Part shown: piece after piece, positions 2,463 to 22,885 of the stretch
Numbering within the stretch: position 1 is the stretch's first letter
Layout: the number at the start of each line of letters is the position of its first letter
IMG/VR virus record: IMGVR_UViG_3300031966_000003
Coordinates: 1-23,004 of that record
Reading direction: 5' to 3' (one strand)
Source of the DNA: a virus
Length of the DNA: 23,004 nucleotides
The notes under the pieces: model-generated
Seen by the model: only the letters and a program-made list of their open reading frames with translations
Told to the model about the DNA's origin: nothing
Database searches by the model: none
Position numbers and translations under genes: made by a program

Positions 2463-2909
2463 GTGCGATCCTTTGACGAACAAGCCGCGTTCGGTCTGCC
2501 CTACGAACGCTTGATCGCGCAGGCGGCGGCGCTGCTGCTCTACCCGCAGCGTCTCGATCTGACGCTGGTGCGACTGGACGCCTACGCGCCGCTGGATTTT
2601 CTGATCGTTGACGGCGAGCGACCGGTCGCGGCGTTGGAGGTCAAGCGCCGGTCGATTCGATCCGATACGTACCGCACAACGATTATTCCGCAATCCGTCG
2701 TCGACGCGGCGCGTCGCTTGACAATCCCCGTCTATGCTGCTATTCTCTTCACCGACGGACTGGCAGTATTCGATGTGCTGCGCACGCCCTCAACCGCACG
2801 CTGGCTGCGCACGCGGCGTGGGGCGCTGCGGAAACATCGAGAATACGACATTTCAGAAAGGTTGGTGAAAGTTGAGGAAGTACATCAACGACAGAGACGA
2901 AGCGCGTGA
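2463..2909 (+). CDS. Small PD-(D/E)XK nuclease-like protein
   Basis: A 148-residue protein starting at GTG 2463, 9 bp after the initiator stop, with AGGGGG just upstream. Residues about 38-62 contain APLDFLIVDGERPVAALEVKRR: an Asp on one strand, then a turn, then E-V-K. That is the core of PD-(D/E)XK endonuclease folds and of the nuclease-like domains of restriction-type proteins. A short hydrophobic strand (IPVYAAILFTDGLAVFDV) follows, as in that fold. It overlaps the DNA polymerase gene by 38 bases and sits inside the replication operon, so a role in DNA processing or recombination is inferred. Specificity is unknown, and a non-catalytic nuclease-fold protein is possible. Confidence 0.6.
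   Translation: MRSFDEQAAFGLPYERLIAQAAALLLYPQRLDLTLVRLDAYAPLDFLIVDGERPVAALEVKRRSIRSDTYRTTIIPQSVVDAARRLTIPVYAAILFTDGLAVFDVLRTPSTARWLRTRRGALRKHREYDISERLVKVEEVHQRQRRSA
2718..2746 (+). promoter_or_regulatory. Possible internal sigma70 promoter before the polymerase gene
   Basis: TTGACA (2718-2723), a 17-base spacer, then TATTCT (2741-2746) preceded by TGC, an extended -10. It lies inside the upstream coding region about 125 bases before the polymerase start. The match may be chance within coding sequence. Confidence 0.42.
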
Positions 2910-5166
2910 TGCGGTTCAATCGCTGCTCGAATGCGAAGCGCTTGCGTTCGACATCGAGACGCAACCGCTGTTTCGCTATCCGAAAGAGCGAACAAAGACG
3001 GCGTACAAGGCGTACTTCGCGTATCTCAAGCGCAACCGGTGGGGCTTGGTTTATGATCCCGATCCCGACGATCTACCCGACCCGCTACCACCGCCGGTTG
3101 ACCGTCTCGCCGAGAAGCAGCGTCTTCGGCGTCTCCTCAACGACGCCCCGCGCGGCGGGAAGACCTCGGCGCGGCGCATCAACGATCTGGAGGACGCGCT
3201 TGCGGCGCTTGCCGACGAGGTTGTACCGGCGTGGGTGATGCGTCACATCGCCCGCTTGCTCTTATCCGGCGACTACGTCAACGACCCGGTGCGCCCCGGT
3301 CTCGACCCGCGTACTTCTCGTATTTTCCTCGTCCAGTTCGCAACGCCGGACGGCGACGCCTACTGCTTCAACGTGCGGCGTGTCGGTCTCGACGTTTTCA
3401 TTCCGATCTTCGAGCGCGTGCCGCTGGTCGGGGCGAACCTCACCTTTGATGTGCAGTTTGTGCTGCACACCGTCGGCGTTTTCCCGCGTGTCGCGTGGGA
3501 TGTCGTCGTAGCGGATCGCGTCATCACGCTGGGGCTGGACGTTCCGCACTCGCTCGCAGCAGTAACCGAACGCTGGACGGGTGAGACGCTCGATAAGAGC
3601 GTGCGCGAGACGTTCGCGGTTCCCGGCGCGCTTGAGCCGACGCCGGATCAAGTCGAATACGCGCTGAAAGATGTGCAAGTGCTATTCCCGATCCAACGCA
3701 GCCAGCAACAGCGCGCTGAGGCGCTGGGCGTGCCGGATGCGGTGCGGCTGTTCGTCAGCCTCACCGTCCCGACCGCCGCCGTCGAGTACTGCGGGCTGCG
3801 CATCGACGCCGCCCGCTGGAACGAGTTAGCAGATGAGGCGGAGCGACGGCTGCGCGCTGCGTCGGAGCATTTTGCGGAGTACCTCGGCGTCGAACCGAAC
3901 GAGTTGACGAAACGCGAACTGGTGAAAACCGCGGCGAAGATGCGTGGGGTGAACATCGATTCGCTCGATAAGCAAGAGTTGGGCGAAGTCGAACGCGAGT
4001 ACGAAGACGACCCGGAGCGGCGTCGGTTTTTTGAGTTGTACCGCGTCTGGTCGCACTGGCAGAAGCGCGTAACCACATACGGACGCGGCTTTCTAGCGCA
4101 CATCCACCCACTGACCGGGAGGGTGCACCCTCACCTCAAGATCGCGGGGGCGGACACCGGGCGGTTCGCGTGCGGGGAGCCGAATCTGCTCAATATCCCG
4201 CGCGGCGAGGGTGACGATCTGGACTACCGCAGTGCGTTCGTTGCGCCGGAAGGGTACGTCTTTGTGAACGCCGACTATTCGGCGATGGAACAGCGTATTG
4301 TTGCCGATCTGTCGAAAGACCCGGCGTTGCTGGCGCTGTTCGCGTCCGGCGGCGACAACCACAGCGTTACCGCAGCGTTGATGTTCCACATCAGGCGCGG
4401 GGACGTTGCGGAGCCGGAGCCGACCACGCTGACGTTCCAGCAGACGCCGGTCGAAGGGTACGTTATTCCGGCGGCGTGGGACGCCCGGCGAACGGTGCAG
4501 TTTGTGATCGAAAGCGGGTTGATGGAGGTCATCAGTACGAAGTATAAGAAGTCAACGCGGCAAGTCGCAAAGGTGGTTGCGTTCTTATACTTCTACGGCG
4601 GCACTCCCGTCGGGCTGGCGAAGAAGTTACACATAACGGCAGACGAGGCGGCGCAATTCTTCCGTGACTTCCGGGCGGTGTATCCGGTGTTGTCGAACTG
4701 GTTTGCGGATACCGCCCGCGCGCCGTTCGAGCAGTCCGCGCGGCGCGCCGACGGATCGACCGTCGGGTACATCACAACGTATGCCGGTCTGCGCCGGTGG
4801 TTCACGCTGCCGAAACCTACTGCGTCGAACAACGAGCAGTGGCGGCAGCGCGGGGCGATCCAACGGCAAGCGATGAACCACCCTTGCCAAGGTGGGAATG
4901 CGGTGATTATGGCGCAAGCGATGGCGGATGCCTTCCGGCTTTGCGAACCGCGCGAGGGCGGCGTTGAGGCGACGCTGGGGATCGAACGAATGATCGTCGC
5001 GCCGATCTATGATGAGGCGCTCGCTATCGTACCCGCGTCGCTGCCGGAAGAGGACGCACAGCGCTGGTTGGAGCAAGTAATGCTTGACGCGGCGCAGCGG
5101 TATATGCAGCGCTGCCCGCCTGCGGTCGAAGCAAACCCGATTTCAAAGAATTGGAGGAAATACTGA
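2872..5166 (+). CDS. polA-like: Family A DNA polymerase with 3'-5' exonuclease
   Basis: 764 residues. The start is TTG 2872, supported by AGAAAGG ten bases upstream. The proofreading domain shows Exo I (FDIET, D27/E29), Exo II (NLTFD, N189-D193) and Exo III (YALKD, Y263-D267). The polymerase domain shows TGRFACGEPNLLNIPR (429-444), motif A (DYSAMEQR, 468-475), motif B (R563, K567, F571, Y575-G576) and motif C (PIYDEA, 711-716). Motif C has Tyr where family A enzymes usually have His before Asp-Glu. About 110 residues rich in charge and proline (35-145) sit between Exo I and the next exonuclease strand, an unusual insertion. There is no 5'-3' exonuclease domain, as is common for phage replicases. 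It most likely copies the phage genome. The stop overlaps the next start by one base (TGATG). Confidence 0.95.
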   Translation: MRKYINDRDEARDAVQSLLECEALAFDIETQPLFRYPKERTKTAYKAYFAYLKRNRWGLVYDPDPDDLPDPLPPPVDRLAEKQRLRRLLNDAPRGGKTSARRINDLEDALAALADEVVPAWVMRHIARLLLSGDYVNDPVRPGLDPRTSRIFLVQFATPDGDAYCFNVRRVGLDVFIPIFERVPLVGANLTFDVQFVLHTVGVFPRVAWDVVVADRVITLGLDVPHSLAAVTERWTGETLDKSVRETFAVPGALEPTPDQVEYALKDVQVLFPIQRSQQQRAEALGVPDAVRLFVSLTVPTAAVEYCGLRIDAARWNELADEAERRLRAASEHFAEYLGVEPNELTKRELVKTAAKMRGVNIDSLDKQELGEVEREYEDDPERRRFFELYRVWSHWQKRVTTYGRGFLAHIHPLTGRVHPHLKIAGADTGRFACGEPNLLNIPRGEGDDLDYRSAFVAPEGYVFVNADYSAMEQRIVADLSKDPALLALFASGGDNHSVTAALMFHIRRGDVAEPEPTTLTFQQTPVEGYVIPAAWDARRTVQFVIESGLMEVISTKYKKSTRQVAKVVAFLYFYGGTPVGLAKKLHITADEAAQFFRDFRAVYPVLSNWFADTARAPFEQSARRADGSTVGYITTYAGLRRWFTLPKPTASNNEQWRQRGAIQRQAMNHPCQGGNAVIMAQAMADAFRLCEPREGGVEATLGIERMIVAPIYDEALAIVPASLPEEDAQRWLEQVMLDAAQRYMQRCPPAVEANPISKNWRKY

Positions 5167-5858
5167 TGAGCGGCTTTTTTGGAGTGAAGATACAACGACA
5201 ACAACCGCTCGTTGACGCGATCCGCAGTGTCGTCGCCGCAAAACGACGCCCGGTCGCGGCGCGGGATCGGGTGTACGCGAGCGAGATTTCCGGCTGTGAT
5301 CGGCGTATCACCTTCGGGCTGCTGGGCTGCGAACCGGACGCGCCGCGCGCAGACAGCCCTTCCGCACTGATCGGCGACGCAATCCACGCGCATCTCGAAG
5401 CGCTGCTGGTCGAGGCGTTTCCGGGGCGCGTCGAGACGGAAGTGCGGGTGGTGAGCGGCGCGATCTCCGGGCGGATCGACGCGCTGCTGGTCGAAGACGA
5501 CAACACGCTGACGGTGATCGACATCAAAACCGTCAGCGCGCGTGAGTGGGCGTCGCGGTCAAAGATCGAGGAGTATGTTGATCAGATCAGCGTCTATGCC
5601 GCGCTGGTCGAGGCGCAGACCGGCGTTGTGCTGCTGGTCAATAGAGACACCGGCGAGATGGAAGAACTCCGGTTCGCGGTTGACCGCGCCCGCGCGGAGG
5701 CGTTGTTGTATAAGGCGCTGCGACTGCAATCGCTGGCGCTGGAGGGGTATATTGCAGAAGCGACGGCGTGGGGAACGGAAGAGTGCCGGTGGTGTCCGTT
5801 CCGCAAGAGGTGCGAGTCGCTTGACAAAACGGGCGTTCTGGAGTATACTGCGGAGTAA
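5166..5858 (+). CDS. Cas4-like Fe-S PD-(D/E)XK nuclease
   Basis: 230 residues. The ATG at 5166 overlaps the polymerase stop and has GGAGGA at 5153-5158. Motifs in order: first cysteine C44 (ISGCDRR); H74 in GDAIHAHLE; D105 in SGRIDAL; D119-I-K121 (VIDIKT); Q140-x3-Y144; then a C-terminal cysteine triad C207-x2-C210-x5-C216. One early plus three late cysteines with the H-D-DxK-QxxxY series is the signature of Cas4/AddB-type RecB-family nucleases, which hold a [4Fe-4S] cluster and degrade or trim single-stranded DNA ends. No CRISPR array or cas1/cas2 is nearby, so this is a phage replication or recombination exonuclease, not an adaptation protein. All expected catalytic and cluster residues are present. 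Confidence 0.88.
   Translation: MSGFFGVKIQRQQPLVDAIRSVVAAKRRPVAARDRVYASEISGCDRRITFGLLGCEPDAPRADSPSALIGDAIHAHLEALLVEAFPGRVETEVRVVSGAISGRIDALLVEDDNTLTVIDIKTVSAREWASRSKIEEYVDQISVYAALVEAQTGVVLLVNRDTGEMEELRFAVDRARAEALLYKALRLQSLALEGYIAEATAWGTEECRWCPFRKRCESLDKTGVLEYTAE
5821..5849 (+). promoter_or_regulatory. Sigma70-type promoter for the SSB-like gene
   Basis: TTGACA (5821-5826), 17-base spacer, TATACT (5844-5849). Both boxes are near consensus. It lies at the 3' end of the Cas4-like gene and 46 bases before the SSB-like start, so it could give the ssDNA-binding protein extra, separate transcription. Confidence 0.65.
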
Positions 5859-5894
5859 GGCGAGAGCGCCGAAGTGATAGAAAGGAATGGAGGT

Positions 5895-6359
5895 ATGTTC
5901 AAGGAACTTATCCACAACGGAAACGGGCGTGAGCGCCCACAACTGAACGGCGCGTACATCGGGCGGTTTCTGGGCGTCAAAGAGCGTCAGCGTTCGACGT
6001 TTGAGACGCGGCTTAGCCCGGAGCCGGAACTTGAGGATGTTTTTGTGTTTGAGTTCGAGGTCGAGGACGATGACGGGAACCCGCTGCGTGTCTCAAAGTG
6101 GGTGCGGAAGCCAAAACGGTTGACGCATCCAAACGGCGGGAAGGTTACCAATCTCTACAAGACGCTGGCAGCGTTGTACGGCGTATCGGTGATGACGGAC
6201 GAACAACTCAACGCTGCTGAGGAGTTCGTCCAGAGCGCGGTCGGACGGGAATATCAACTCACAATCGAGACCAAGCCTAGCGGCTGGTACGAGATTGTGC
6301 ACATCGCCCCCGTTCGCGCGAGGCTGCGAAAGACGAAAGAAGATGAAGTCCCGTTCTAA
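5895..6359 (+). CDS. Putative single-stranded DNA-binding protein (SSB-like)
   Basis: 154 residues from ATG 5895. AAAGGA sits 8 bases upstream; a closer ATG at 5887 is out of frame. The protein is rich in beta-type segments (GAYIGRFLGVKE, EDVFVFEFEVEDDDGNPLRVSKWV, GREYQLTIETKPSGWYEIVHIAPV), compatible with an OB-like fold. It ends in an acidic hydrophobic tip EDEVPF (149-154), close to the DDDIPF tail through which bacterial SSB recruits partner proteins. A dedicated promoter at 5821 and its position among polymerase, nuclease and resolvase genes fit an abundant ssDNA-coating protein. I did not recognise a named family, so the function rests on tail, context and size. The last 17 bases overlap the next gene. 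Confidence 0.55.
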   Translation: MFKELIHNGNGRERPQLNGAYIGRFLGVKERQRSTFETRLSPEPELEDVFVFEFEVEDDDGNPLRVSKWVRKPKRLTHPNGGKVTNLYKTLAALYGVSVMTDEQLNAAEEFVQSAVGREYQLTIETKPSGWYEIVHIAPVRARLRKTKEDEVPF

Positions 6360-7967: not shown

Positions 7968-8607
7968 CGTTATTGCCTGGATCATCGCGGGGGGCGTCAT
8001 CCTCGCCCTCGTCAACAGCAACGTCGCGGACGGACTGCTGAGCGCGCTTGACCTCAGCGACAACCTCAAACGCGCCGTCGATTGGGCGCGGGGGGTGCGC
8101 GGGGTTCCGGCGGGCGTGGCGTCGGTCTGTTTCTTCATTCTCGCGTATGTGTTCGGAGCACTGGCGTACCGCTACGACCTTGTACCGACCTGGCGGTTCA
8201 TTCAGCCGATAGCCGCCGACGTGCTCGCGACGGGGGCGGAATGGTTGACGCTGTTTGCGCTGTTCCTCACGCTGTTGCCGACGCTGATTGAGTTGGCAAC
8301 GGTCGGACTGGTGCAGCGCGACATTCGGGCGCTCCAGTGGATGGTGTACTTCTTCATCTTTTTTGATATTGTCACCGACTTCGGAGAAGCGGTCGCGTTG
8401 GTGGAGGTATGGCAGCGCGGCGGACTGTTTGCGCCGTTGCCGGACGCGCTGGAGGGCGCGGCGGCGGTGCTGGCGAAAGTCGGCTGGACGTTTGCCGCAT
8501 CGTTCGCGTTTGAGTTCCTCGCCGTTCTGTGCGCAGTAACGGCGTTGCTGCTCGCCGCGAATGTCCGCGCGTCCGGCGGCGGGGGCGGCGGAGGAGGCGG
8601 GAGGTGA
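7960..8607 (+). CDS. Multi-pass membrane protein with poly-glycine tail
   Basis: 215 residues from ATG 7960. Hydrophobic stretches at about 3-20, 50-70, 90-115, 122-140 and 168-198 suggest four or five membrane helices. The loops carry Arg and Asp. No enzyme motif was seen. The protein ends in SGGGGGGGGGR, encoded by the G-rich stretch that also forms the ribosome binding site of the next gene. It is translationally coupled (GTGA overlap) to the membrane-anchored FtsK-like ATPase, so the two may form a membrane complex; that is inference. Confidence 0.75.
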   Translation: MSDVIAWIIAGGVILALVNSNVADGLLSALDLSDNLKRAVDWARGVRGVPAGVASVCFFILAYVFGALAYRYDLVPTWRFIQPIAADVLATGAEWLTLFALFLTLLPTLIELATVGLVQRDIRALQWMVYFFIFFDIVTDFGEAVALVEVWQRGGLFAPLPDALEGAAAVLAKVGWTFAASFAFEFLAVLCAVTALLLAANVRASGGGGGGGGGR

Positions 8608-10253
8608 ACGTCAGCGGGAAAGCAGTATTTTTGATGCTGTTCGGCGTCGCGGTTGCGTTCAGCGTTGACCCGATTGCCGGCGTCTTCGCGTTCCTCGCGC
8701 TGGCGGCGGCGACCAACCGCGAGGCGGCGGTGCGCGTCTATCACGCATTGAACGACGCCGCGTATCGGGTCGAGCGGCAACTCGAACAGCGCGGCCGGCT
8801 GCCGACGGCGCTCGCCGGAAGTGTCACAACACCGCGTATAAATAAAGAAGAAGATACTGTTGTGACGGTTGATGAGCAAGCGCCCGCCGGTGCGGGCGCG
8901 GGCGTCGCAGCCCCCGCTGCCGCAGCCCCCGCTGCTGTCACAACACCGTATAGAAATAAAAGAGAAGATGATGTTGTGACGCTTCCTTCCCCATCACTGT
9001 TCAACCCCGCCGACCCGCGTCCGGCGCGCTTCGCGGTTCCGCTGGGTGTTGACCAGACCGGCGCGTTTCGTTGGTTGGACTTCGGGAGCGACGCGCTGCA
9101 TATTGGGCTGTACGGAACCAGCGGCTGCGGGAAGGATCACCTGCTGCGGCTGTGGTTCGCGACGCTGCTCAACGAGCGCGGGGTGCGCTGGGCGATCCTC
9201 GACGGCAAAGGCGACTGGTTGACGCCCAACCTCGCGCGGCTGCCGCAGATGTTGTTTCCTCCCGCGGGTGGCTACGGCGACGAGGGGCAGCAGCGGATAC
9301 TGAGCGCGATCGGTGCAATCAACGAAGAGGCGAAGCGTCGGTTCGGATTGCTGTTGAGCGCCGGGGTGCGCAGCGTCGAGGAGTACAATCAGACCGCGCC
9401 CGATCCGCTGCCGTTGCTGGTCGTACTCGCAACCGACATCATCGATGTGGTTGACGAGACCGAACGTTTGCTGATCGCGCTGGTCAGCAAAGCGCGGGCG
9501 TTGGGTATTCGGGTTATCGTCTCGATGCAGACGCCCACCGGCAAGCGGCTTGAGTGGCGGATGAACCTATCCACCCTCATCTCCGGCGCGCTGGTGGACG
9601 GAAGCCAGGACGCCCCGGCACTGGGGATGCGCGATCCGAAGGCGCTGGTGTACCGACCGTCGCAGTTGCCGCCGCCGCCCGGCGAGCGCGGGCTGTTCGT
9701 GGTGCGGCACAACAACGAGCAGTTTCTCGTCCGCACGCCGGTGTTGGTCGGAGACTTCGACGCGCTGATCAACGCGCGCAACGACGCAGCGCTGCTGGAG
9801 ACGCTGCTCTTCAGTGATGTCACAACACCGCGTATAAATAAAAGAAACGAATGTGTTGTGACGGCTGATACACAGACGCCCGTCCCGCGCGTCGGGGACG
9901 GAGTTGAGCCGTCCCCGCGTATTGTGACGCCGCAAATCGCCTCTAGCCCCGTCCCAGCGCGTGCTGATGCGGCGGGACGGCGGGGACGGGCGGATACGGC
10001 ATCAGAAAGGCTTGGGACGGGTGTTGTTCCGTCCCCGTCCCCAACCGTCCCCGTCCCGACCGTTCCCGAACCCGCAAAAATCGCCCAAATCGGGGAGTTT
10101 CGCGGGGACGGGGACGGCGGGGACGATGCGCTGCTCGCGGCGCTGGCGGCGCTCCAGCGCGCGGGCGTCAGTCGAGAGCAGGCGCGGGCGTTAGGGCTGC
10201 GGTTTCGTAACGGCGACTGGGCGCGCGCGGCGCGGTTGGCGGTTGTGGACTGA
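8604..10253 (+). CDS. Membrane-anchored FtsK/HerA-like DNA translocase ATPase
   Basis: 549 residues. The start is GTG 8604 (AGGAGG at 8592-8597), overlapping the previous stop. N-terminal hydrophobic segments (about 6-38) give one or two membrane helices. A linker (70-128) follows, translated through two 44-bp repeats. The ATPase core has Walker A GTSGCGKD (171-178), where Asp replaces the usual Ser/Thr; a D-G-K-G-D strand (200-204); a hydrophobic strand ending LLVVLATD (271-278); and VIVSMQTP (304-311), like the sensor strand of FtsK/HerA/VirD4 enzymes. A third repeat at 406-420, a Pro-rich linker and a small helical C-terminal domain (about 506-549) follow. This type of hexameric motor moves double-stranded DNA. 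It is uncommon in a lytic phage and could point to a conjugative or phage-plasmid-like life style. The Walker A change may affect ATP use. Confidence 0.8.
   Translation: MNVSGKAVFLMLFGVAVAFSVDPIAGVFAFLALAAATNREAAVRVYHALNDAAYRVERQLEQRGRLPTALAGSVTTPRINKEEDTVVTVDEQAPAGAGAGVAAPAAAAPAAVTTPYRNKREDDVVTLPSPSLFNPADPRPARFAVPLGVDQTGAFRWLDFGSDALHIGLYGTSGCGKDHLLRLWFATLLNERGVRWAILDGKGDWLTPNLARLPQMLFPPAGGYGDEGQQRILSAIGAINEEAKRRFGLLLSAGVRSVEEYNQTAPDPLPLLVVLATDIIDVVDETERLLIALVSKARALGIRVIVSMQTPTGKRLEWRMNLSTLISGALVDGSQDAPALGMRDPKALVYRPSQLPPPPGERGLFVVRHNNEQFLVRTPVLVGDFDALINARNDAALLETLLFSDVTTPRINKRNECVVTADTQTPVPRVGDGVEPSPRIVTPQIASSPVPARADAAGRRGRADTASERLGTGVVPSPSPTVPVPTVPEPAKIAQIGEFRGDGDGGDDALLAALAALQRAGVSREQARALGLRFRNGDWARAARLAVVD
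8823..8866 (+). repeat. 44-bp inverted-end repeat, copy 2
   Basis: Left arm GTCACAACAC; core GTATAAATAAAGAAG; right end TGTTGTGAC. It is translated in frame as VTTPRINKEEDTVVT in the linker between membrane helices and ATPase core. Confidence 0.92.
8937..8980 (+). repeat. 44-bp inverted-end repeat, copy 3
   Basis: Left arm GTCACAACAC; core ATAGAAATAAAAGAG; right end TGTTGTGAC. It is translated in frame as VTTPYRNKREDDVVT, 70 bases after copy 2, separated by an Ala/Pro/Gly-rich linker. Confidence 0.92.
9819..9862 (+). repeat. 44-bp inverted-end repeat, copy 4
   Basis: Left arm GTCACAACAC; core GTATAAATAAAAGAA; right arm GTGTTGTGAC. It is translated in frame as VTTPRINKRNECVVT directly after the ATPase core and before the Pro-rich linker. 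Confidence 0.92.
9890..10130. repeat. Cluster of GGGGACGG / CCGTCCCC motifs
   Basis: About ten copies of a GGGGACGG-like octamer lie in both orientations, for example near 9894, 9909, 9980, 10030-10055 and 10103-10125. They encode a low-complexity Pro/Ser/Thr/Val and Gly/Asp linker in the ATPase. The alternating orientation lets many hairpins form. Confidence 0.7.
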
Positions 10254-10268
10254 AAAAGGAGATGAGAA

Positions 10269-10538
10269 ATGGAAGAGATCGAACTCTGGGGCGGTATTCG
10301 AGGAAACACGTTTCGGAGTACGCATCTGGTGCGGTTCATCGGCGAGTATCTCGGTATGGTCACCATAGCGCACGCAGACGAGTGGGTAGAGCGGTGCGTC
10401 CTCTACCGCACCGAGGACGGGCGCGTTGCGGTGCACCAGATGCGGTTATCCCTCCTCGACGACGGGGTTGATGTTGCAGAAGTGTACGTCCTTCCCGCGC
10501 TGGACGCGGGTGAGGGGGAACGAGGGGAGCGTTTATGA
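10269..10538 (+). CDS. Small W-x-G / DGRVxVH family protein, member A
   Basis: 89 residues from ATG 10269, with AAGGAG at 10256-10261. Family marks seen here: an N-terminal E-L-W-G-G strand, GEYLG, the central block CVLYRTEDGRVAVHQMRLS, and AEVYVLPALDAG. The same layout occurs in the genes at 11960-12247, 12427, 13218, 13649, 15655-15954 and, more weakly, 16350. It looks like a small beta-rich domain of unknown role. Unlike most members it has no promoter of its own and lies between the ATPase and the PP-loop gene; its stop overlaps the next ATG. Confidence 0.7.
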   Translation: MEEIELWGGIRGNTFRSTHLVRFIGEYLGMVTIAHADEWVERCVLYRTEDGRVAVHQMRLSLLDDGVDVAEVYVLPALDAGEGERGERL

Positions 10539-11260
10539 AAACGGTTATATCCTACGGCGGCGGCGTGCAGAGCACCGCGCTGGTCGTACTGGCGATGCAG
10601 CGCGGGTGGCAAATAGACGAAATCGTCCACGTCGATCTTCTCGATGCTGAAGCGCCAAACACGCGCGAGTACGTCAAATGCTTCGCGGGTTGGCTGCGGG
10701 AGACGTACAACCGCAGCATCACAATCCTCCAGCGCGATCTGTACGGGGATATGCTTGCGCGTCCGGCGTTTACGCCCGCGCCGTGGCGCGCACGAGACGG
10801 CTCGTTTATGCTGCGCCGCCAGTGCACGCGGCAGTACAAGGTGGAACCGATCCGACGCTATCTGTACGACAAGTACGCGCGTGAGAAGATACAACTGATG
10901 CTGGGGATCAGCGTTGACGAGTTCCACCGTATGCGCGATTCCGGTTCTGCGCGCATCGAAAACGTCTACCCGCTGGTAGACGAGCGCCTTACCCGCAACG
11001 ACTGCCGCGCGATCCTCGAACGCGCCGGGCTTGCAACGCCGCCGAAATCGTCGTGCTGGTTCTGCCCGTACCGATCGGTGCGCAGCCAGGCGGAACTGCT
11101 CAGACAGTACCCGGCGCTGCGCGAGATGGGTGAGGAACTGGAGCGGCGCATCAACGAGGAGCGGCGGAAGCGCGGGAAAGACGAGATCGCGGTGTTGCGT
11201 GCGGACGCTGCGCTTGACGACCAAAGCGACTTCTGCGAGGAGGGATTCTGCGACGCTTAG
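10535..11260 (+). CDS. PP-loop ATPase, PAPS-reductase-like
   Basis: 241 residues from ATG 10535, in an ATGA overlap. The N-terminal SYGGGVQST (6-14) is the PP-loop (SGGxxST type) of the PAPS reductase / adenine nucleotide alpha hydrolase superfamily. Further marks: CTRQYKVEPIRRYL (C97), LGISVDEFHRMRDS (124-136), YPLVDERLTRNDC (C157) and KSSCWFCPYR (C174, C177). Two more cysteines are at 234 and 239. Phage proteins of this type are usually annotated as PAPS reductase family, but true sulfate reduction is doubtful. Adenylation-dependent sulfur or base chemistry on nucleotides, tRNA or DNA is the general capability of the superfamily. The cysteines could hold zinc or an Fe-S cluster. No dnd or other DNA modification partner is visible. 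Confidence 0.82.
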   Translation: MKTVISYGGGVQSTALVVLAMQRGWQIDEIVHVDLLDAEAPNTREYVKCFAGWLRETYNRSITILQRDLYGDMLARPAFTPAPWRARDGSFMLRRQCTRQYKVEPIRRYLYDKYAREKIQLMLGISVDEFHRMRDSGSARIENVYPLVDERLTRNDCRAILERAGLATPPKSSCWFCPYRSVRSQAELLRQYPALREMGEELERRINEERRKRGKDEIAVLRADAALDDQSDFCEEGFCDA

Positions 11261-11270
11261 GCGAGTGTTT

Positions 11271-11314
11271 GTCACAACACGCTATAGAAATAAAAGAAGA
11301 AGAGATGTTGTGAC
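11271..11314 (+). repeat. 44-bp inverted-end repeat, copy 5
   Basis: Left arm GTCACAACAC; core ATAGAAATAAAAGAA; right end TGTTGTGAC. It lies in the 72-bp gap between the PP-loop gene and the next membrane protein. It is intergenic, yet the same codon phase stays open through it. Confidence 0.92.
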
Positions 11315-11332
11315 GGTGAAGGAGATGTACTC

Positions 11333-11959: not shown

Positions 11960-12247
11960 CTACTGAATGACGCCCGCCTTCTTCAGCACAAACCGGTACT
12001 CCTTAGCCGCTTCTTCAAGCGAGGGGTACTCGTAAATCTCGGCTTCTACGTAATGACCCTTTCGCTCGACGAAGAAGACGACAATATTCTCATCCCACTC
12101 GATGATGCGGTACTGAATGTCCGCTTCCTCGTCGTTGAACCGAACAGCGCCGAGTTCACGCGCGTCCTCATACGTCACTACTTCGTAATCGTTCTCTTCG
12201 TCCCAGTTCCAGTGCCGGTAGCCACGCCAAATGCTGATGGTTGCCAT
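11960..12247 (-). CDS. Small W-x-G / DGRVxVH family protein, member B
   Basis: 95 residues on the - strand, start at 12247, with AGAAAGGAAGG upstream. It shares the family layout: SIWRGY near the N-terminus, ARELGAV, a central block (YRIIEWDENIVVFFVERKG) replacing YRxxDGRVVVHEVR, and IYEYPSLEEAAKEYRFVLKKAGVI matching the YIFPSLDEAADAFRW end of member C. It is more acidic and less GC-biased than neighbours. It is driven by its own promoter and read away from member C across a shared divergent promoter region. Function unknown. Confidence 0.8.
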   Translation of the reverse strand: MATISIWRGYRHWNWDEENDYEVVTYEDARELGAVRFNDEEADIQYRIIEWDENIVVFFVERKGHYVEAEIYEYPSLEEAAKEYRFVLKKAGVIQ

Positions 12248-12292
12248 AGGATTGCCTTCCTTTCTCGTAGGGTGATTATTGTTTACGTCTCT

Positions 12293-12321
12293 ACTCTACC
12301 GCACACGTCGCGATTTGTCAA
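12293..12321 (-). promoter_or_regulatory. Promoter for member B (- strand)
   Basis: Read on the - strand: TTGACA (12321-12316), 17-base spacer, TAGAGT (12298-12293). GAAATTGGGGC lies just upstream, a block shared with the promoter at 13578. Confidence 0.82.
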
Positions 12322-12357: not shown

Positions 12358-12386
12358 TTGACAACCGGCGCGGGGTGTGGTAGGAT
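12358..12386 (+). promoter_or_regulatory. Promoter for member C
   Basis: TTGACA (12358-12363), 17-base spacer containing GCGCGGGGTGTGG, then TAGGAT (12381-12386) with TGG before it (extended -10). The leader continues to AGAAAGGAGG before the ATG at 12427. Confidence 0.8.
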
Positions 12387-12426
12387 ATGAGCGTAATCAC
12401 TTTCACTGACAGAAAGGAGGGCAACT

Positions 12427-12753
12427 ATGACTACGGTTAATCTTTGGAAGGGCGTCAAGAGGGTCGTTATGGGCAACGATTTGTCGGACTATGTAACGGT
12501 CGAGTTTGAGGGGGAGACCCTCGGCGCGGTTGAGGAAGAGAGCAATCATCGGGGGACGAGCACGGTCTTCTACCGCGCCGCCGATGGGCGGGTTGTCGCC
12601 CATCGGGTTCGATGGAGTCGGTGGGAAGGCGAGTGTGATTATGGGGAGGTGTATATCTTCCCCTCGCTGGACGAGGCGGCAGACGCCTTCCGCTGGGAGA
12701 TGGAGTGCGCGGGGATAATCCCCCGCCGGACGGTTACGCTTGATGAGTTGTAA
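12427..12753 (+). CDS. Small W-x-G / DGRVxVH family protein, member C
   Basis: 108 residues from ATG 12427, with AGAAAGGAGG 7 bases upstream. Family blocks in order: NLWKGV (5-10), VEFEGETLGAV (about 25-35), TVFYRAADGRVVAHRVRW (about 46-63), YGEVYIFPSLDEAADAFRW and the tail TVTLDEL. This is the clearest consensus member. Predominantly beta strands followed by one helix; no membrane segment, no cysteine motif, no catalytic motif. It is a single-gene transcript with its own strong promoter and a perfect terminator at 12764, unlike the head and replication operons. Function unknown; early accessory or regulatory protein is only a guess. Confidence 0.85.
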   Translation: MTTVNLWKGVKRVVMGNDLSDYVTVEFEGETLGAVEEESNHRGTSTVFYRAADGRVVAHRVRWSRWEGECDYGEVYIFPSLDEAADAFRWEMECAGIIPRRTVTLDEL

Positions 12754-13217: not shown

Positions 13218-13568
13218 ATGATAACTATCTGGGGCGGCTACATCGCTGCGGGCGACGCGCGGGTGTACCTGATCTCCTTCGACGGCGAGCGGATCGGCGG
13301 GATGAGCGAGCGCAACGTTCAGCGAACGTTTTACCGCGTGCACGACGGGCGCGTTGTGGTGCACGAGGTGCGGATCGGAAGGCGGCGCGGCGGGATCACA
13401 TACGATCAAGCGCTGGTGTATGTATTCAGCAGCATCACCGAAGCGTGCGCACACCTCGCCGTCAACCCGCAGCACATCGCCCAGACGCGCGGCGACGCGG
13501 CGTTGCCGTCCGTCGAAGCGCCGACGCTCACGCCGGACGAGTGGGCGCGCGGGGTGGGAACGTACTGA
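13218..13568 (+). CDS. Small W-x-G / DGRVxVH family protein, member D
   Basis: 116 residues from ATG 13218, with GAGGAGGT at 13206-13213. Blocks: TIWGGYI (3-9), ISFDGERIGG, RTFYRVHDGRVVVHEVRIG, then QALVYVFSSITEA and a longer tail with TLTPDEW. It is closest to member E, also at the DNA level around the DGRVVVHEVR block, so these two are probably a tandem duplication. It sits between a terminator upstream and the member E promoter, 9 bases past its stop. No promoter of its own was identified. Function unknown. Confidence 0.8.
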   Translation: MITIWGGYIAAGDARVYLISFDGERIGGMSERNVQRTFYRVHDGRVVVHEVRIGRRRGGITYDQALVYVFSSITEACAHLAVNPQHIAQTRGDAALPSVEAPTLTPDEWARGVGTY

Positions 13569-13577
13569 AATTGGGGC

Positions 13578-13606
13578 TTGACAACGCGCGCGGGTTGTGG
13601 TATAGT
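13578..13606 (+). promoter_or_regulatory. Promoter for member E
   Basis: TTGACA (13578-13583), 17-base spacer CAACGCGCGCGGGTTG-like, TATAGT (13601-13606) with TGG before it. Preceded by GAAATTGGGGC as at the member B promoter. Best matched promoter in the window. Confidence 0.87.
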
Positions 13607-13648
13607 ATAACCGTAATCGATTTCACCAACACAGAAAGGAACACTGCT

Positions 13649-14062
13649 ATGGCTACGACTATTCGCGTGTGGGACGGGTATATATCAACAGTCGATGAGT
13701 TGGTTCGCTGGATCACCTTCGACGGCGAGCGGCTTGGCGGAGTTGTTTACAAGGGAGACGGCGACTCTCGCTTTAGCAGGATAGAGCGTACATTTTACCG
13801 GGCGACCGATGGCAAGGCGGTTGTTCACGAAGTTCGGTTCGGCAAGTGGGACGGTGGTTATGCGTGCGATCAGAGTTTTCTGTATATATACGCCAACATC
13901 GGCGATATGTACGAGAACATCGGCGTCAGCGCGCAAAACATCGATCTGGATTGCCGAAACGTCCGCTCGCTGCATATCGAACCACGCGAAACGCACGCAG
14001 AGATGACGCTGGATGAGTACATCTACAAGTTCGAGATTTGCATCACCAACCCATTCGCATAA
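13649..14062 (+). CDS. Small W-x-G / DGRVxVH family protein, member E
   Basis: 137 residues from ATG 13649, with AGAAAGGAACA upstream. Blocks: IRVWDGYIS (5-13), WITFDGERLGGV, RTFYRATDGKAVVHEVRFGKWDGG, FLYIYANIGDMYENIGV, then a C-terminal extension of about 45 residues with EMTLDEYIYKFEI. The TLDE(Y/L) tail recurs in members C and D. It has its own strong promoter and is followed by a terminator hairpin before the clamp-like genes. Function unknown. Confidence 0.82.
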   Translation: MATTIRVWDGYISTVDELVRWITFDGERLGGVVYKGDGDSRFSRIERTFYRATDGKAVVHEVRFGKWDGGYACDQSFLYIYANIGDMYENIGVSAQNIDLDCRNVRSLHIEPRETHAEMTLDEYIYKFEICITNPFA

Positions 14063-14072
14063 TACAACCCAG

Positions 14073-14106
14073 GCGCGGCTGCGAACCCTCGCACGCCGCG
14101 CTTTTC
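14073..14106 (+). terminator. Intrinsic terminator after member E
   Basis: GCGCGGC-TGCGA (14073-14084), loop ACCC, TCGCA-C-GCCGCGC (14089-14101) with one bulged base, then TTTTCT. It precedes the clamp-like genes, so these may depend on read-through. Confidence 0.8.
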
Positions 14107-14139
14107 TATTATCAGAAAGGAACGAAAATAGTAGACTCG

Positions 14140-14775
14140 ATGCTTGCTCAGTTTCTGAACGTCGCGCTTGACGTTCAGACGCCCGCCTATGCGGGCGTTC
14201 GTGTGGCGAACGGTACGCTGGTCGCTTCAGACGGCGTGGTGTTGGTTGCGTACCGTCTGAATTCCGAATACATTCGCGGCGAGGGGATGATCCCTCCCGC
14301 GACCGCGAGGGCGCTGGCGGCGCTCGCCAACGAGGTGTATCTGGACTACATCGAGGTTGACGGGACTGCTGTCAGTCTCGTTACGCGGGAACAGTACGAG
14401 GATCGCTCTGAGCGTTTGGTTGTGACGTTCCCGCCGTTCGCGTGTTACACTTTATGTATCGAGTCGTTTCTGCCGCGCTGCACGCCGCCGGACGCAACGC
14501 TGCTGTGTGAAGCGCCGTCGCTGAAACTTGTGAAAGCCGCGCGCAGTAACGATTTTGTTGAACTCGTCGATAACCCGGTGCGCGGCAGCGAGTTGTTCCA
14601 ACTCAAGTTGCCGGACGCGAAGGTCTGGTACAGCGTCCGGCAACTTCGGGAAGGGTTGCGGCTGTTCCGAGCGCGCGATACGGTCAGCGTGTTCTGGAAC
14701 GAGCAAGGCTGGCTGGCGTTCCGGGACGATTGGGGGAGACTATTCGCGGTAACGCCTTACGTCAAACGCGATTAG
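14140..14775 (+). CDS. Sliding-clamp-like protein 1
   Basis: 211 residues from ATG 14140. AAAGGA at 14116-14121 is 18 bases upstream, too far. The next gene, aligned, starts four codons earlier, where this gene has ATA (14128-14130), so an ATA start is possible. The N-terminal half has GTLVASDGVVLVAYRL and RGEGMIPPATARALAAL; the C-terminal half has WYSVRQLREGLRLF, VSVFWNEQGWLAF and the end LFAVTPYVK. These resemble beta-clamp elements (ATDGxRL, a Pro-led helix, and the final xVxPxxx strand). Its length suits a two-domain clamp such as T4 gp45 or PCNA, which tethers the polymerase to DNA. No domain search was possible. Homologous to the next gene throughout. Confidence 0.6.
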   Translation: MLAQFLNVALDVQTPAYAGVRVANGTLVASDGVVLVAYRLNSEYIRGEGMIPPATARALAALANEVYLDYIEVDGTAVSLVTREQYEDRSERLVVTFPPFACYTLCIESFLPRCTPPDATLLCEAPSLKLVKAARSNDFVELVDNPVRGSELFQLKLPDAKVWYSVRQLREGLRLFRARDTVSVFWNEQGWLAFRDDWGRLFAVTPYVKRD

Positions 14776-14797
14776 TGATCCAAGAAAGGAACGATAT

Positions 14798-15469
14798 ATG
14801 CCAAGTTCAGAATTAGCCCGCTTTTTGAACGTCGCCATCGACGTTCAAGCCCAGCCGTTCCCCGGCATTCACGTCGCAGACGGCGTGATACTGGCGACCG
14901 ACGGCGTAATGCTGGTCGCCAAGAAGTTCGACGTAGTGTTTATGCGCGGCGAAGGCGCGATTTCGCCGAAAGCCGCGCGGGTGCTGGAGGCGCTGGCGGA
15001 GGCGACGTGGATCGGAAGCGTCGCCGTTGTCGGGAACCGCGTGACCGCGACCGCGCAGACCACGCGGTACGACGAGCAGCTTGGCGCAGAGGTGGCGGGT
15101 GGGTATCGAGAGATTGAGTTGGAGTTCTATTGCCCGCGAGCGCCGGTCGCGCGGATGCTTGGGGTTTTGCACGACGAGAGTCGGGGTTGGCAGCAGATCG
15201 TTGAGAACCCGAACTTGAAGGCGCTGAAGGAGATGAGCGCGCGGGATTACGTCGCGTTGATAGACAACCCGCGCAACGGCGGCGAACTCTTCCGCCCGAA
15301 GGAAATCGACGACCCACACTGGTACAGCGTCGCCCAGTTGCGGCGCGGGCTGCGGCTGTTCGGCGCGCGGGCGCGTCTGAGCGTTCGCCGGAACGCCAAA
15401 GGCTGGCTGGCGTTCGAGGACGGGTATGGTCACACCTTCGCCGTCACCCCGTTTGTCAAACACAACTAG
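14798..15469 (+). CDS. Sliding-clamp-like protein 2
   Basis: 223 residues from ATG 14798, with AGAAAGGAACGA 6 bases upstream, a near copy of the leader of the preceding gene. Shared blocks with that gene: LARFLNVAIDVQ, GVILATDGVMLVAKKF, MRGEGAISPKAARVLEALAE, ALIDNPRNGGELFRP, WYSVAQLRRGLRLFGARARLSV and FAVTPFVK. ATDGVML resembles the ATDGYRL motif of beta clamps. The two genes, 22 bases apart, look like an old duplication and could form a mixed ring. It is not near the polymerase gene, but fits as its processivity factor. Alternative: a clamp-fold decoy or inhibitor of the host clamp. A terminator follows at once. Confidence 0.6.
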   Translation: MPSSELARFLNVAIDVQAQPFPGIHVADGVILATDGVMLVAKKFDVVFMRGEGAISPKAARVLEALAEATWIGSVAVVGNRVTATAQTTRYDEQLGAEVAGGYREIELEFYCPRAPVARMLGVLHDESRGWQQIVENPNLKALKEMSARDYVALIDNPRNGGELFRPKEIDDPHWYSVAQLRRGLRLFGARARLSVRRNAKGWLAFEDGYGHTFAVTPFVKHN

Positions 15470-15488
15470 CCCCCGACGCGAACGCCAG

Positions 15489-15521
15489 AACCGCCGGACG
15501 CGCGTCCGGCGGTTTCTGTTT
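15489..15521 (+). terminator. Perfect 26-bp palindrome, intrinsic terminator
   Basis: AACCGCCGGACGC (15489-15501) meets its exact complement (15502-15514), then TTCTGTTTG. It ends the clamp-like operon. The next bases (TTCAGCAGTGTCACAAC) lead directly into a 44-bp repeat, a join also seen at 16729-16758. Confidence 0.85.
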
Positions 15522-15531
15522 GTTCAGCAGT

Positions 15532-15575
15532 GTCACAACACCGTATAGAAATAAAAGAAGACGAGGTGTTGTGAC
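15532..15575 (+). repeat. 44-bp inverted-end repeat, copy 6
   Basis: Left arm GTCACAACAC; core ATAGAAATAAAAGAA; right arm GTGTTGTGAC. Intergenic, between the clamp-operon terminator and the terminator of the convergent - strand gene. Confidence 0.93.
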
Positions 15576-15601
15576 GGCAGCGCGGGCTTGGCGACGGCGG
15601 G

Positions 15602-15654: not shown

Positions 15655-15954
15655 TTAGAGCAGTCGCATCTCCTTCAGCGCCTGCTCGAAGCCGTCTGCC
15701 GCCGCCTCGCTCAGATCGCGGTATCGGTGGATTGAGCCGTAGCTAGGATCGCCGAGACCGGCTTCCTGAACCACGTGGATGATGATCTCACTTTCAGTGC
15801 GGTAGACGCTGTATGTTTTTCCCAACAAGCCTTCATCTGGTAATTCAATGAACCATCCGATATCCTCGGCGACAATCTCGATAACGGTGTACTTGCTGGC
15901 GTCGTCGCCGGGCAGAAATGTTCGCTCGCCTTGCCAAATCTTGTAGGTCTGCAT
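15655..15954 (-). CDS. Small W-x-G / DGRVxVH family protein, member F
   Basis: 99 residues on the - strand, start at 15954, with TAGGAGGAA 8 bases upstream. Blocks: KIWQGER near the N-terminus, VAEDIGWF, SVYRTESEIIIHVVQEAG in place of FYRxxDGRVVVHEVR, and YRDLSEAAADGFEQAL in place of VYVFPSLDEAADAF. It is a divergent member, acidic and less GC-biased, like member B, which is also on the - strand. Own promoter at 15998-16026 and own terminator make it an independent unit. Function unknown. Confidence 0.78.
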   Translation of the reverse strand: MQTYKIWQGERTFLPGDDASKYTVIEIVAEDIGWFIELPDEGLLGKTYSVYRTESEIIIHVVQEAGLGDPSYGSIHRYRDLSEAAADGFEQALKEMRLL

Positions 15955-15997
15955 TTTAGGTTCCTCCTATGTGATAGCGTTGATTTACTGTGACTAT

Positions 15998-16026
15998 ACT
16001 CTACCACACCCCGCGCCGTTTGTCAA
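15998..16026 (-). promoter_or_regulatory. Promoter for member F (- strand)
   Basis: On the - strand: TTGACA (16026-16021), 17-base spacer ending GGGGTGTGG, TAGAGT (16003-15998) with TGG before it. Preceded by GAAAATTGGG. Confidence 0.83.
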
Positions 16027-16063: not shown

Positions 16064-16092
16064 TTGACAACCCGACGCGCGCGTGGTATACT
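16064..16092 (+). promoter_or_regulatory. Promoter for the 69-residue gene and member G
   Basis: TTGACA (16064-16069), 17-base spacer, TATACT (16087-16092) with TGG before it. The leader carries CAGAAAGGAG before ATG 16128. Confidence 0.85.
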
Positions 16093-16127
16093 GAGTGCGT
16101 AGTCAATCATCAGAAAGGAGTACTTCG

Positions 16128-16349: not shown

Positions 16350-16688
16350 ATGTTTCGAGACGTTACGATTATAAACGGCCCCGTCCCGAAGGACGGGGTT
16401 GCGGACTACGAAAGATTACGCATCAAGGCGCGTCCGCTTGGTCGTCCCTACACTTGGGACAACGGGCGGGCGTGGAATGACTATACAACAAACGGCGGGG
16501 TTGCTATCGTCTTCGAGGCTAAGGATGGGTCTATCTACATTCAGGAGATCGAGTGGGAAGTTGATCCCTACCCAGACGCGACGCCTGACCCGCGCACCTA
16601 CTACTACTACGAAGTGTACAACTCGCTCGATGAAGCGCGAGCAGGCTGGCGTGGGTGGTTGATAGAGTACGCGCTGGGAAACGAGTAG
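16350..16688 (+). CDS. Small family protein, divergent member G
   Basis: 112 residues from ATG 16350, with GAGGAAAG upstream. Weaker family likeness: VAIVFEAKDGSIYIQEIEWE aligns with TVFYRAADGRVVAHRVRWS of member C, and YEVYNSLDEARAGWRGWL with YIFPSLDEAADAFRW. The W-x-G start is replaced by TIINGPVPKDG. Rich in Tyr, Trp and acidic residues, with less GC-biased codons than neighbours. A terminator follows within 25 bases. Membership is my inference from two blocks; function unknown. Confidence 0.72.
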   Translation: MFRDVTIINGPVPKDGVADYERLRIKARPLGRPYTWDNGRAWNDYTTNGGVAIVFEAKDGSIYIQEIEWEVDPYPDATPDPRTYYYYEVYNSLDEARAGWRGWLIEYALGNE

Positions 16689-16733: not shown

Positions 16734-16748
16734 TGGTTGTTCAGCAGT

Positions 16749-16792
16749 GTCACAACACTCGATCTTCTTTTATTTATACGCAGTGTTGTGAC
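16749..16792 (-). repeat. 44-bp inverted-end repeat, copy 7 (reversed)
   Basis: Perfect 10-bp ends. The core reads GTATAAATAAAAGAA on the - strand, opposite to all copies outside this gap. Confidence 0.93.
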
Positions 16793-16851
16793 ACCCGCCG
16801 CACAACCTGAAAGTAGTACTCCCCCGCGCCCGCTGTCGGATCATCAGCAGC

Positions 16852-16894
16852 GTCACAACACATCATCTTCTTTTATTATACGCAGTGTTGTGAC
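16852..16894 (-). repeat. 43-bp variant of the repeat, copy 8 (reversed)
   Basis: Perfect 10-bp ends. One base is missing in the core (ATAATAAAA instead of ATAAATAAAA on the - strand). With copy 7 it fills the 315-bp gap between member G and the head module, which contains no gene. Confidence 0.92.
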
Positions 16895-16944
16895 ACCCGC
16901 GCCCGCGCCGCGATCTGGCGTACGAAAATGCGGCGCGTTTCCGG

Positions 16945-22521: not shown

Positions 22522-22533
22522 TACAAGCGCAGT

Positions 22534-22577
22534 GTCACAACACATCTCTTAATTAAAAGAAGATGCTGTGTTGTGAC
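22534..22577 (+). repeat. 44-bp inverted-end repeat, copy 9
   Basis: Perfect 10-bp ends. The core is altered to TCTTAATTAAAAGAAG and includes the rare TTAATTAA. It starts 13 bases after the capsid stop. Confidence 0.92.
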
Positions 22578-22634
22578 GCTGCTACTGCTGATGACACCGG
22601 CGGCGGGGAGTACTACGTTTGGGTGAGGCGGGCT

Positions 22635-22678
22635 GTCACAACACTGCATAGAAATAAAAGAAGATGATGTGTTGTGAC
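22635..22678 (+). repeat. 44-bp inverted-end repeat, copy 10
   Basis: Perfect 10-bp ends with the consensus core ATAGAAATAAAAGAAGATG. In this copy the otherwise open codon phase meets TGA. Confidence 0.93.
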
Positions 22679-22711
22679 ACTGCTGATGACCAACCCGCGT
22701 CGGGCGCGGGC

Positions 22712-22721: not shown

Positions 22722-22730
22722 TCGGGCGCT

Positions 22731-22774
22731 GTCACAACACATCATATAAATAAAAGAAGATGATGTGTTGTGGC
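22731..22774 (+). repeat. 44-bp inverted-end repeat, copy 11
   Basis: Left arm GTCACAACAC extends to ACATCAT, matched by ATGATGTGTTGTG on the right, giving the longest pairing of all copies. One mismatch at the very end (GTGGC). Confidence 0.92.
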
Positions 22775-22817
22775 GGCGACGGGATACGGATCAACGGTTG
22801 AATAGACAACGGGCGCT

Positions 22818-22861
22818 GTCACAACACTGTATAGAAAGAAAAGAAGATGCTGTGTTGTGAC
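22818..22861 (+). repeat. 44-bp inverted-end repeat, copy 12
   Basis: Perfect 10-bp ends. Core ATAGAAAGAAAAGAAG has one change from consensus. It ends 24 bases before the next start codon. No gene or promoter was seen in the 364-bp gap outside the repeats. Confidence 0.92.
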
Positions 22862-22885
22862 GGCGCACGAGAGGAGGAGCATACG

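Follow-up and report, generated by a model that had tools for sequence, protein, structure and literature searches.

Compact Clamps and Phage Clamps Described to Date

Sliding clamps of the T4 gp45 and PCNA type carry two clamp repeats in each subunit of about 220–260 aa. Phage T4 combines its gp45 with its own clamp loader and a family B polymerase. Several paralogous two-domain subunits can also be encoded by one genome, as in Sulfolobus, where PCNA1, PCNA2 and PCNA3 form a defined heterotrimer. Another group comprises DnaN-like phage clamps of phrog_947, "DNA polymerase processivity factor" (VpKK5 orf34, Pseudomonas phage Ab26 ORF27 and relatives). These proteins are of three-domain size, about 317–408 aa, and are encoded by single-copy genes directly beside the polymerase gene. 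In Vibrio phage VpKK5 the gene of the three-domain clamp adjoins that of a family A polymerase, and the same neighborhood is found in related phages. In the Thermocrinis Octopus Spring virus group (OS3173, GBS41), a PolA-type polymerase is accompanied by a single putative clamp of the Pol III beta type, and no loader is obvious (PMC7689252).

Two proteins considered as precedents for a short phage clamp were rejected. Burkholderia phage AH2 gp20 (209 aa, annotated as a beta subunit) matches phrog_3007, which carries a RusA-like annotation, and has no relative beyond AH2's own records. The start of the 246-aa clamp of phage Seurat is probably misannotated, because its homologs are of three-domain size, about 317–408 aa.

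A Tandem Pair of Clamp-like Genes

We analyzed a stretch of DNA of 23,004 nucleotides from a small uncultured phage (positions 1 to 23,004 of IMG/VR record IMGVR_UViG_3300031966_000003), referred to below as the window. Two consecutive open reading frames on its plus strand, separated by 22 nt, encode the sliding-clamp-like proteins P0001 (A-type, 14140–14775, 211 aa) and P0002 (B-type, 14798–15469, 223 aa). BLASTP aligns the two over their full length with 42% identity in 223 columns (154 bits, E 8e-52); judged by sequence, they are diverged tandem paralogs. A preliminary description of the locus had proposed two homologous tandem proteins of these lengths, and its coordinates proved exact. 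The clamp motifs that it quoted (DGV.LV, RGEG with a Pro-led helix, FAVTP.VK) are all present as well. The pair carries ASDGVVLV and ATDGVMLV, RGEG followed by a proline-started helix (residues 53–65 of the P0001 model and 57–69 of the P0002 model), and FAVTPYVK and FAVTPFVK, modeled as a strand in both proteins. The dN/dS ratio is 0.16 for P0001, measured against the ortholog from the related genome G009, and 0.24–0.29 for P0002, measured against orthologs from three relatives. On these values both appear to be real genes maintained by purifying selection.

The translation start of P0001 differs from that of its ortholog. In G009 (locus L010) the gene opens with ATG GTA GAC TCA ATG CTC (MVDSMLAQ...), 6 nt past a Shine-Dalgarno-like site. 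The window retains the same site, GAAAGGA (14115–14121, plus strand), and its matching stretch reads ATA GTA GAC TCG ATG CTT in the corresponding frame, with ATA (14128–14130, plus strand) in place of the first ATG. As read from the sequence, the window has thus lost the original start or retains it in weakened form, and translation of P0001 would have to begin at the internal ATG at 14140 (or at the ATA). This ATG lies 18 nt from the Shine-Dalgarno-like site, versus 6 nt in G009. P0002 has a Shine-Dalgarno-like site of its own, AAAGGAA (14785–14791, plus strand), and the output of P0001 may possibly be below that of P0002.

Fold and Family Membership

AlphaFold2 models of both proteins were built on a 19-sequence alignment (pLDDT 78.6 and pTM 0.73 for P0001; 74.8 and 0.67 for P0002). 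In both, the N domain is predicted to run helix, four strands, helix, three strands, and is followed by a less complete helix/strand set of the same kind, giving two clamp repeats. This topology, together with Foldseek matches extending over both domains, points to two copies of the processivity fold per modeled subunit. Overall confidence is moderate: pLDDT falls to about 39–58 in the linker region, the five models of P0002 spread in confidence from 46 to 75, and the outer edge strands, which make the ring interfaces in known clamps, have no clear prediction.

Among the 50 PDB matches listed by Foldseek for each model there are only sliding clamps, DnaN and PCNA from many organisms (best E 7.6e-6 for P0001 and 1.9e-5 for P0002). 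Matches at E ≤ 1e-3 number 240 for P0001, with heterotrimeric archaeal PCNA subunits among its matches, and 44 for P0002. TM-scores by query length of 0.40–0.65 and rmsd of about 6–11 Å are read as matching domains whose inter-domain angle differs or is poorly modeled. A fold search of BFVD returned mostly phage DnaN-like clamps, the first being a 222-aa "DNA polymerase III beta subunit" of Xanthomonas phage Suba (A0A679K1N7), a protein of the same size with an identity of only 14%. The clamp-type fold anticipated by the preliminary description is therefore what the searches returned, and neither of the contrary outcomes looked for, a fold of another type or strong similarity to an unrelated family, was found. 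Its suggestion of a two-domain subunit rather than the three-domain bacterial clamp likewise agrees with the two modeled repeats and the length of 211–223 aa.

Similarity in sequence was sought at several levels. phrog_947 is matched by 9 of the 19 family members, weakly and partially (best E 0.0056; 0.012 for P0001), and no significant whole-length match to its profile was obtained. When the family was compared by hhalign with a profile built from twelve phrog_947-like phage clamps, the score was 36.8 and the probability 51–57% over about 45 columns; 60 column shuffles reached a score of at most 25.6. The N domain aligns to repeat 1 of that profile and a second alignment falls on repeat 2, both in register at the A(T/S)DG.(M/V)LV motif. 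The resemblance to phrog_947 clamps lies around their (A)TDG.MLV motif; the fold is shared with them, whereas the size is not. The hhalign score did not rise above noise when the comparison was with ten DnaN proteins from cells or plasmids. No Pfam family was matched at a useful level, those of T4 gp45 and PCNA included, and the likeness to these two-repeat clamps is one of fold only. Nor does the family have the three domains, the length of ~360–400 aa or the Pfam domains (PF00712, PF02767, PF02768) of bacterial DnaN; a PF02768 search of the phage records gave nothing, and the same model was detected in 11 control genomes. PDB sequence searches, whether started from one protein or from the profile, returned nothing useful, and no relative was found by tblastn in 50,697 GenBank phage records or by a scan of GTDB genomes. 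Support for the clamp fold is thus good from the models and modest from sequence; assignment to any named sequence family is not supported.

Copy Number and the Clamp Slot in Related Phages

Family searches yielded 20 further IMG/VR records, and all 21, the window included, were searched whole. A single family copy is present in 19 of them, 18 of the P0002 type and one (G009) of the P0001 type, although most of the 21 records are incomplete and a second copy elsewhere is possible there; G020, whose exact 118-bp terminal repeat marks it as a complete genome of about 32.3 kb, has one. The two tandems are that of the window, A followed by B, and that of G014 (locus L015, 1987–2658 and 2671–3333), where a B-type gene is followed by a third type, C. 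A single clamp gene is the norm in this phage group, and the pair is not.

P0002-type orthologs are 63–91% identical to P0002, the G009 clamp is 88% identical to P0001, and the C-type protein, which has a changed C-terminus (FAIAPFAD), is 53–54% identical to P0002. In the tree, P0001 and the G009 clamp form a fully supported group separate from the remaining sequences, and C sits on a long branch. Since some genomes have the A type as their sole family member and others the B type, neither should need a partner, and both probably work alone. The tandem resembles a doubled set of interchangeable clamp versions more than a new machine.

The clamp gene occupies a slot with recurring borders. A GC-rich leader hairpin followed by TTTTCTATT (14072–14101, plus strand) stands upstream of the pair; the hairpin, GGCGCGGCTGCGAACCCTCGCACGCCGCGC, precedes the A-type gene in G009 and, slightly changed, the B-type gene in G001, G002 and G020. 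The slot is closed by a terminator-like hairpin conserved in relatives (15488–15515, plus strand), and this terminator and a dispersed repeat lie downstream of the clamp in all single-copy loci compared. In the window the leader hairpin adjoins P0001 and the terminator adjoins P0002.

Replication Module and Clamp Loader

The window encodes a set of putative replication proteins on the plus strand: a helicase or origin-binding-type protein cut at the window edge (3–2453; phrog_4913 1.1e-43, Herpes_ori_bp 9.3e-10), a family A DNA polymerase with a 3′–5′ exonuclease domain (2872–5166; DNA_pol_A 3.6e-50, DNA_pol_A_exo1 1.1e-14), a PD-(D/E)XK Cas4-like exonuclease (5151–5858; PDDEXK_1 1.3e-12, phrog_1706 6e-25) and a probable ssDNA-binding protein (5874–6359; weak match to phrog_378, E 0.0032). 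Some 9 kb separate the clamp genes from the polymerase gene, whereas phrog_947 clamps are encoded directly beside it. The preliminary description regarded a family A polymerase with two clamps as unusual. VpKK5 and the Octopus Spring viruses provide precedent for the combination of clamp and polymerase; the tandem itself is indeed uncommon, at 2 of 21 records.

The clamp loader model PF13177 found nothing in 11 phage records, including the window and the complete G020, and was detected in 14 of 14 control genomes. A general AAA model gave no match over the cut-off in the same number of records; its single match below the cut-off lies in a large G009 open frame (988 aa). By these two Pfam models the phage has no recognizable clamp loader, although a diverged one may exist, and it is therefore likely that the host loader is used. 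In its family A polymerase and lack of a recognizable loader the phage differs from T4 and resembles the Octopus Spring virus group as described.

In all family members the two C-domain helices together carry a net charge of +4 to +7, whereas those of the N domain are close to neutral or negatively charged. Residues K141, R182 and R186 of P0002, which lie in the C-domain helices and are invariant or nearly so, would line the hole of the proposed ring.

Divergence of the Clamp

Among the same phages, identity to the window's genes is 85–90% for PolA, 88–96% for TerL, 93–97% for the portal protein and 85–97% for most other genes, as against 40–91% for the clamp. The mean clamp distance is 0.33, versus 0.06–0.13 for the remaining genes that were measured. 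In a comparison of nine genomes, clamp distances are correlated with the distances between PolA proteins (rho 0.72, permutation p 0.004) and between helicases (0.71, p 0.004), more weakly with those of the exonuclease (0.31) and TerL (0.35), and not with those of the portal (0.09) or capsid (0.08). With G009 left out, the values for PolA and TerL become 0.51 and 0.54, and the specificity of the correlation drops. These correlations fit a clamp belonging to the replication module and are taken as supporting evidence only. Such quick divergence is odd for a core replication part, and could reflect a conflict between clamp and host instead of, or besides, service to PolA.

Interpretation and Alternative Explanations

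We consider it most probable, at roughly two chances in three, that P0001 and P0002 are diverged versions of one compact clamp that forms homo-oligomeric rings, is loaded by the host and tethers PolA, the two versions having been paired by recombination. Each protein would form its own ring, probably a trimer with six clamp repeats, as implied by two repeats per subunit in analogy with gp45 and PCNA. We infer that the host clamp loader places this ring on the primer-template, because the phage has no recognizable loader of its own, and that the family A polymerase is the client held there. The usual state would be one clamp gene in a fixed slot, extending from a leader, often with a hairpin, to a terminator, with an allele unusually divergent between genomes otherwise 85–97% identical. 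The window would then be a merodiploid in which an A-type gene has come to stand ahead of a B-type one, probably via recombination.

Two adjacent, diverged copies could also make a mixed ring, as the preliminary description proposed, with P0001 and P0002 co-assembling like Sulfolobus PCNA1-2-3 and recruiting different clients through different subunits. The close spacing and shared direction of the genes, the purifying selection on both, the second tandem in G014 and the archaeal heterotrimer subunits among the Foldseek matches are in line with this proposal. It is weakened by the close relatives: unlike the Sulfolobus subunits, the A type occurs alone in G009 and the B type in 18 records. Neither is thus dependent on its partner, a point against a ring that must be mixed, and the G014 tandem pairs B with C, not A. 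A mixed ring is possible, though not required, and we regard it as unlikely. In a facultative form, which we hold equally doubtful, A and B subunits would combine in the window phage and offer a viral example of mixed clamp rings, in a group that swaps and doubles clamp versions between near-identical phages, perhaps matching the loaders of different hosts.

Slightly less plausible is a processivity factor that needs no loader, its monomers or dimers binding DNA directly without a ring, as do herpesvirus UL42 and UL44. A complete genome with no recognizable loader and the asymmetric basic face formed by the C-domain helices would suit such a factor; however, basic inner helices are also found in ring clamps, the overall charge is near neutral, and the host loader is an available alternative.

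We find it improbable that one copy, of the P0001 kind, has been turned on the host, poisoning the beta clamp or its loader or competing for clamp-binding host proteins; the preliminary description had raised targeting of the host clamp by one of the two. The excess divergence of the clamp is what conflict would produce, and loss of the original P0001 start codon suggests an altered dosage, but the A-type protein is the only clamp of G009 and presumably serves the phage replisome there, and its dN/dS ratio indicates overall constraint. Least probable of all is an assembly artifact joining co-occurring A-type and B-type strains, since, although such strains share the slot and its flanks and single-copy records dominate, the A/B junction has at most 12 exact bases in common with any other locus compared, which makes a k-mer-driven join unlikely, and a different tandem is present in G014.

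What is odd here is the compact size in combination with no recognizable loader, the fast divergence of the clamp, and clamp merodiploidy. Compact phage clamps alongside a family A polymerase, with no recognizable loader, appear to be an undescribed set, because no relative was found in the Pfam, GenBank-phage and GTDB collections searched. Taken alone, the result is a reliable identification of genes and not a surprising one. As a natural experiment, near-identical phages in which the clamp is far more variable than the other genes measured, and doubled in 2 of 21 records, allow one to ask how a phage clamp matches the host loader and the polymerase and whether paralogous subunits mix.

Other Features of the Window

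The window has five sigma-70-like promoters of nearly identical sequence, TTGACAA-N14-GGTANNNTA (17-nt spacer), at 12292–12321 (minus strand), 12358–12387, 13578–13607, 15997–16026 (minus strand) and 16064–16093; none is expected in shuffled sequences. Among those found on the plus strand, the third (TTGACA-17-TATAGT) is the closest upstream of the clamp slot, and in G005 and G014 a similar promoter stands directly before the clamp gene. The five precede several genes of small proteins around the slot. Diverged paralogs of about 90–140 aa with the pattern W.G....FYR..DGR.VVH.VR...Y.YPSLDEA are encoded in this region at 10269–10538, 11960–12247 (minus strand), 12427–12753, 13649–14062, 15655–15954 (minus strand) and 16350–16688, and probably near 13219–13568; those scanned had no significant Pfam or PHROG match.

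The dispersed repeat is about 46 nt long and has inverted arms, TGTCACAACAC-(A/T-rich, AAATAAAAGAAG)-GTGTTGTGAC. Twelve copies are distributed over both strands of the window, at 2380–2432, 8818–8870, 8932–8984, 9814–9866, 11266–11318, 15527–15579, 16743–16796, 16848–16899, 22529–22581, 22630–22682, 22726–22778 and 22813–22865, and the repeat was found in all 40 loci compared. Its exact pattern matched no GTDB genome and so gave no host assignment. Some copies lie in frame inside open reading frames, three of them in the FtsK-like gene, where they encode VTTPRINK...VVT, and one near the C-terminus of the helicase gene. The repeats could be repressor or stoperator sites, or a mobile palindrome tolerated by the proteins.

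The FtsK/SpoIIIE-like ATPase itself (8529–10253; phrog_1358 1.7e-17) is encoded in a phage of about 32 kb. Further downstream, a PAPS-reductase-like protein with a CWFCPYR motif is encoded at 10535–11260 (phrog_424 5.5e-33).
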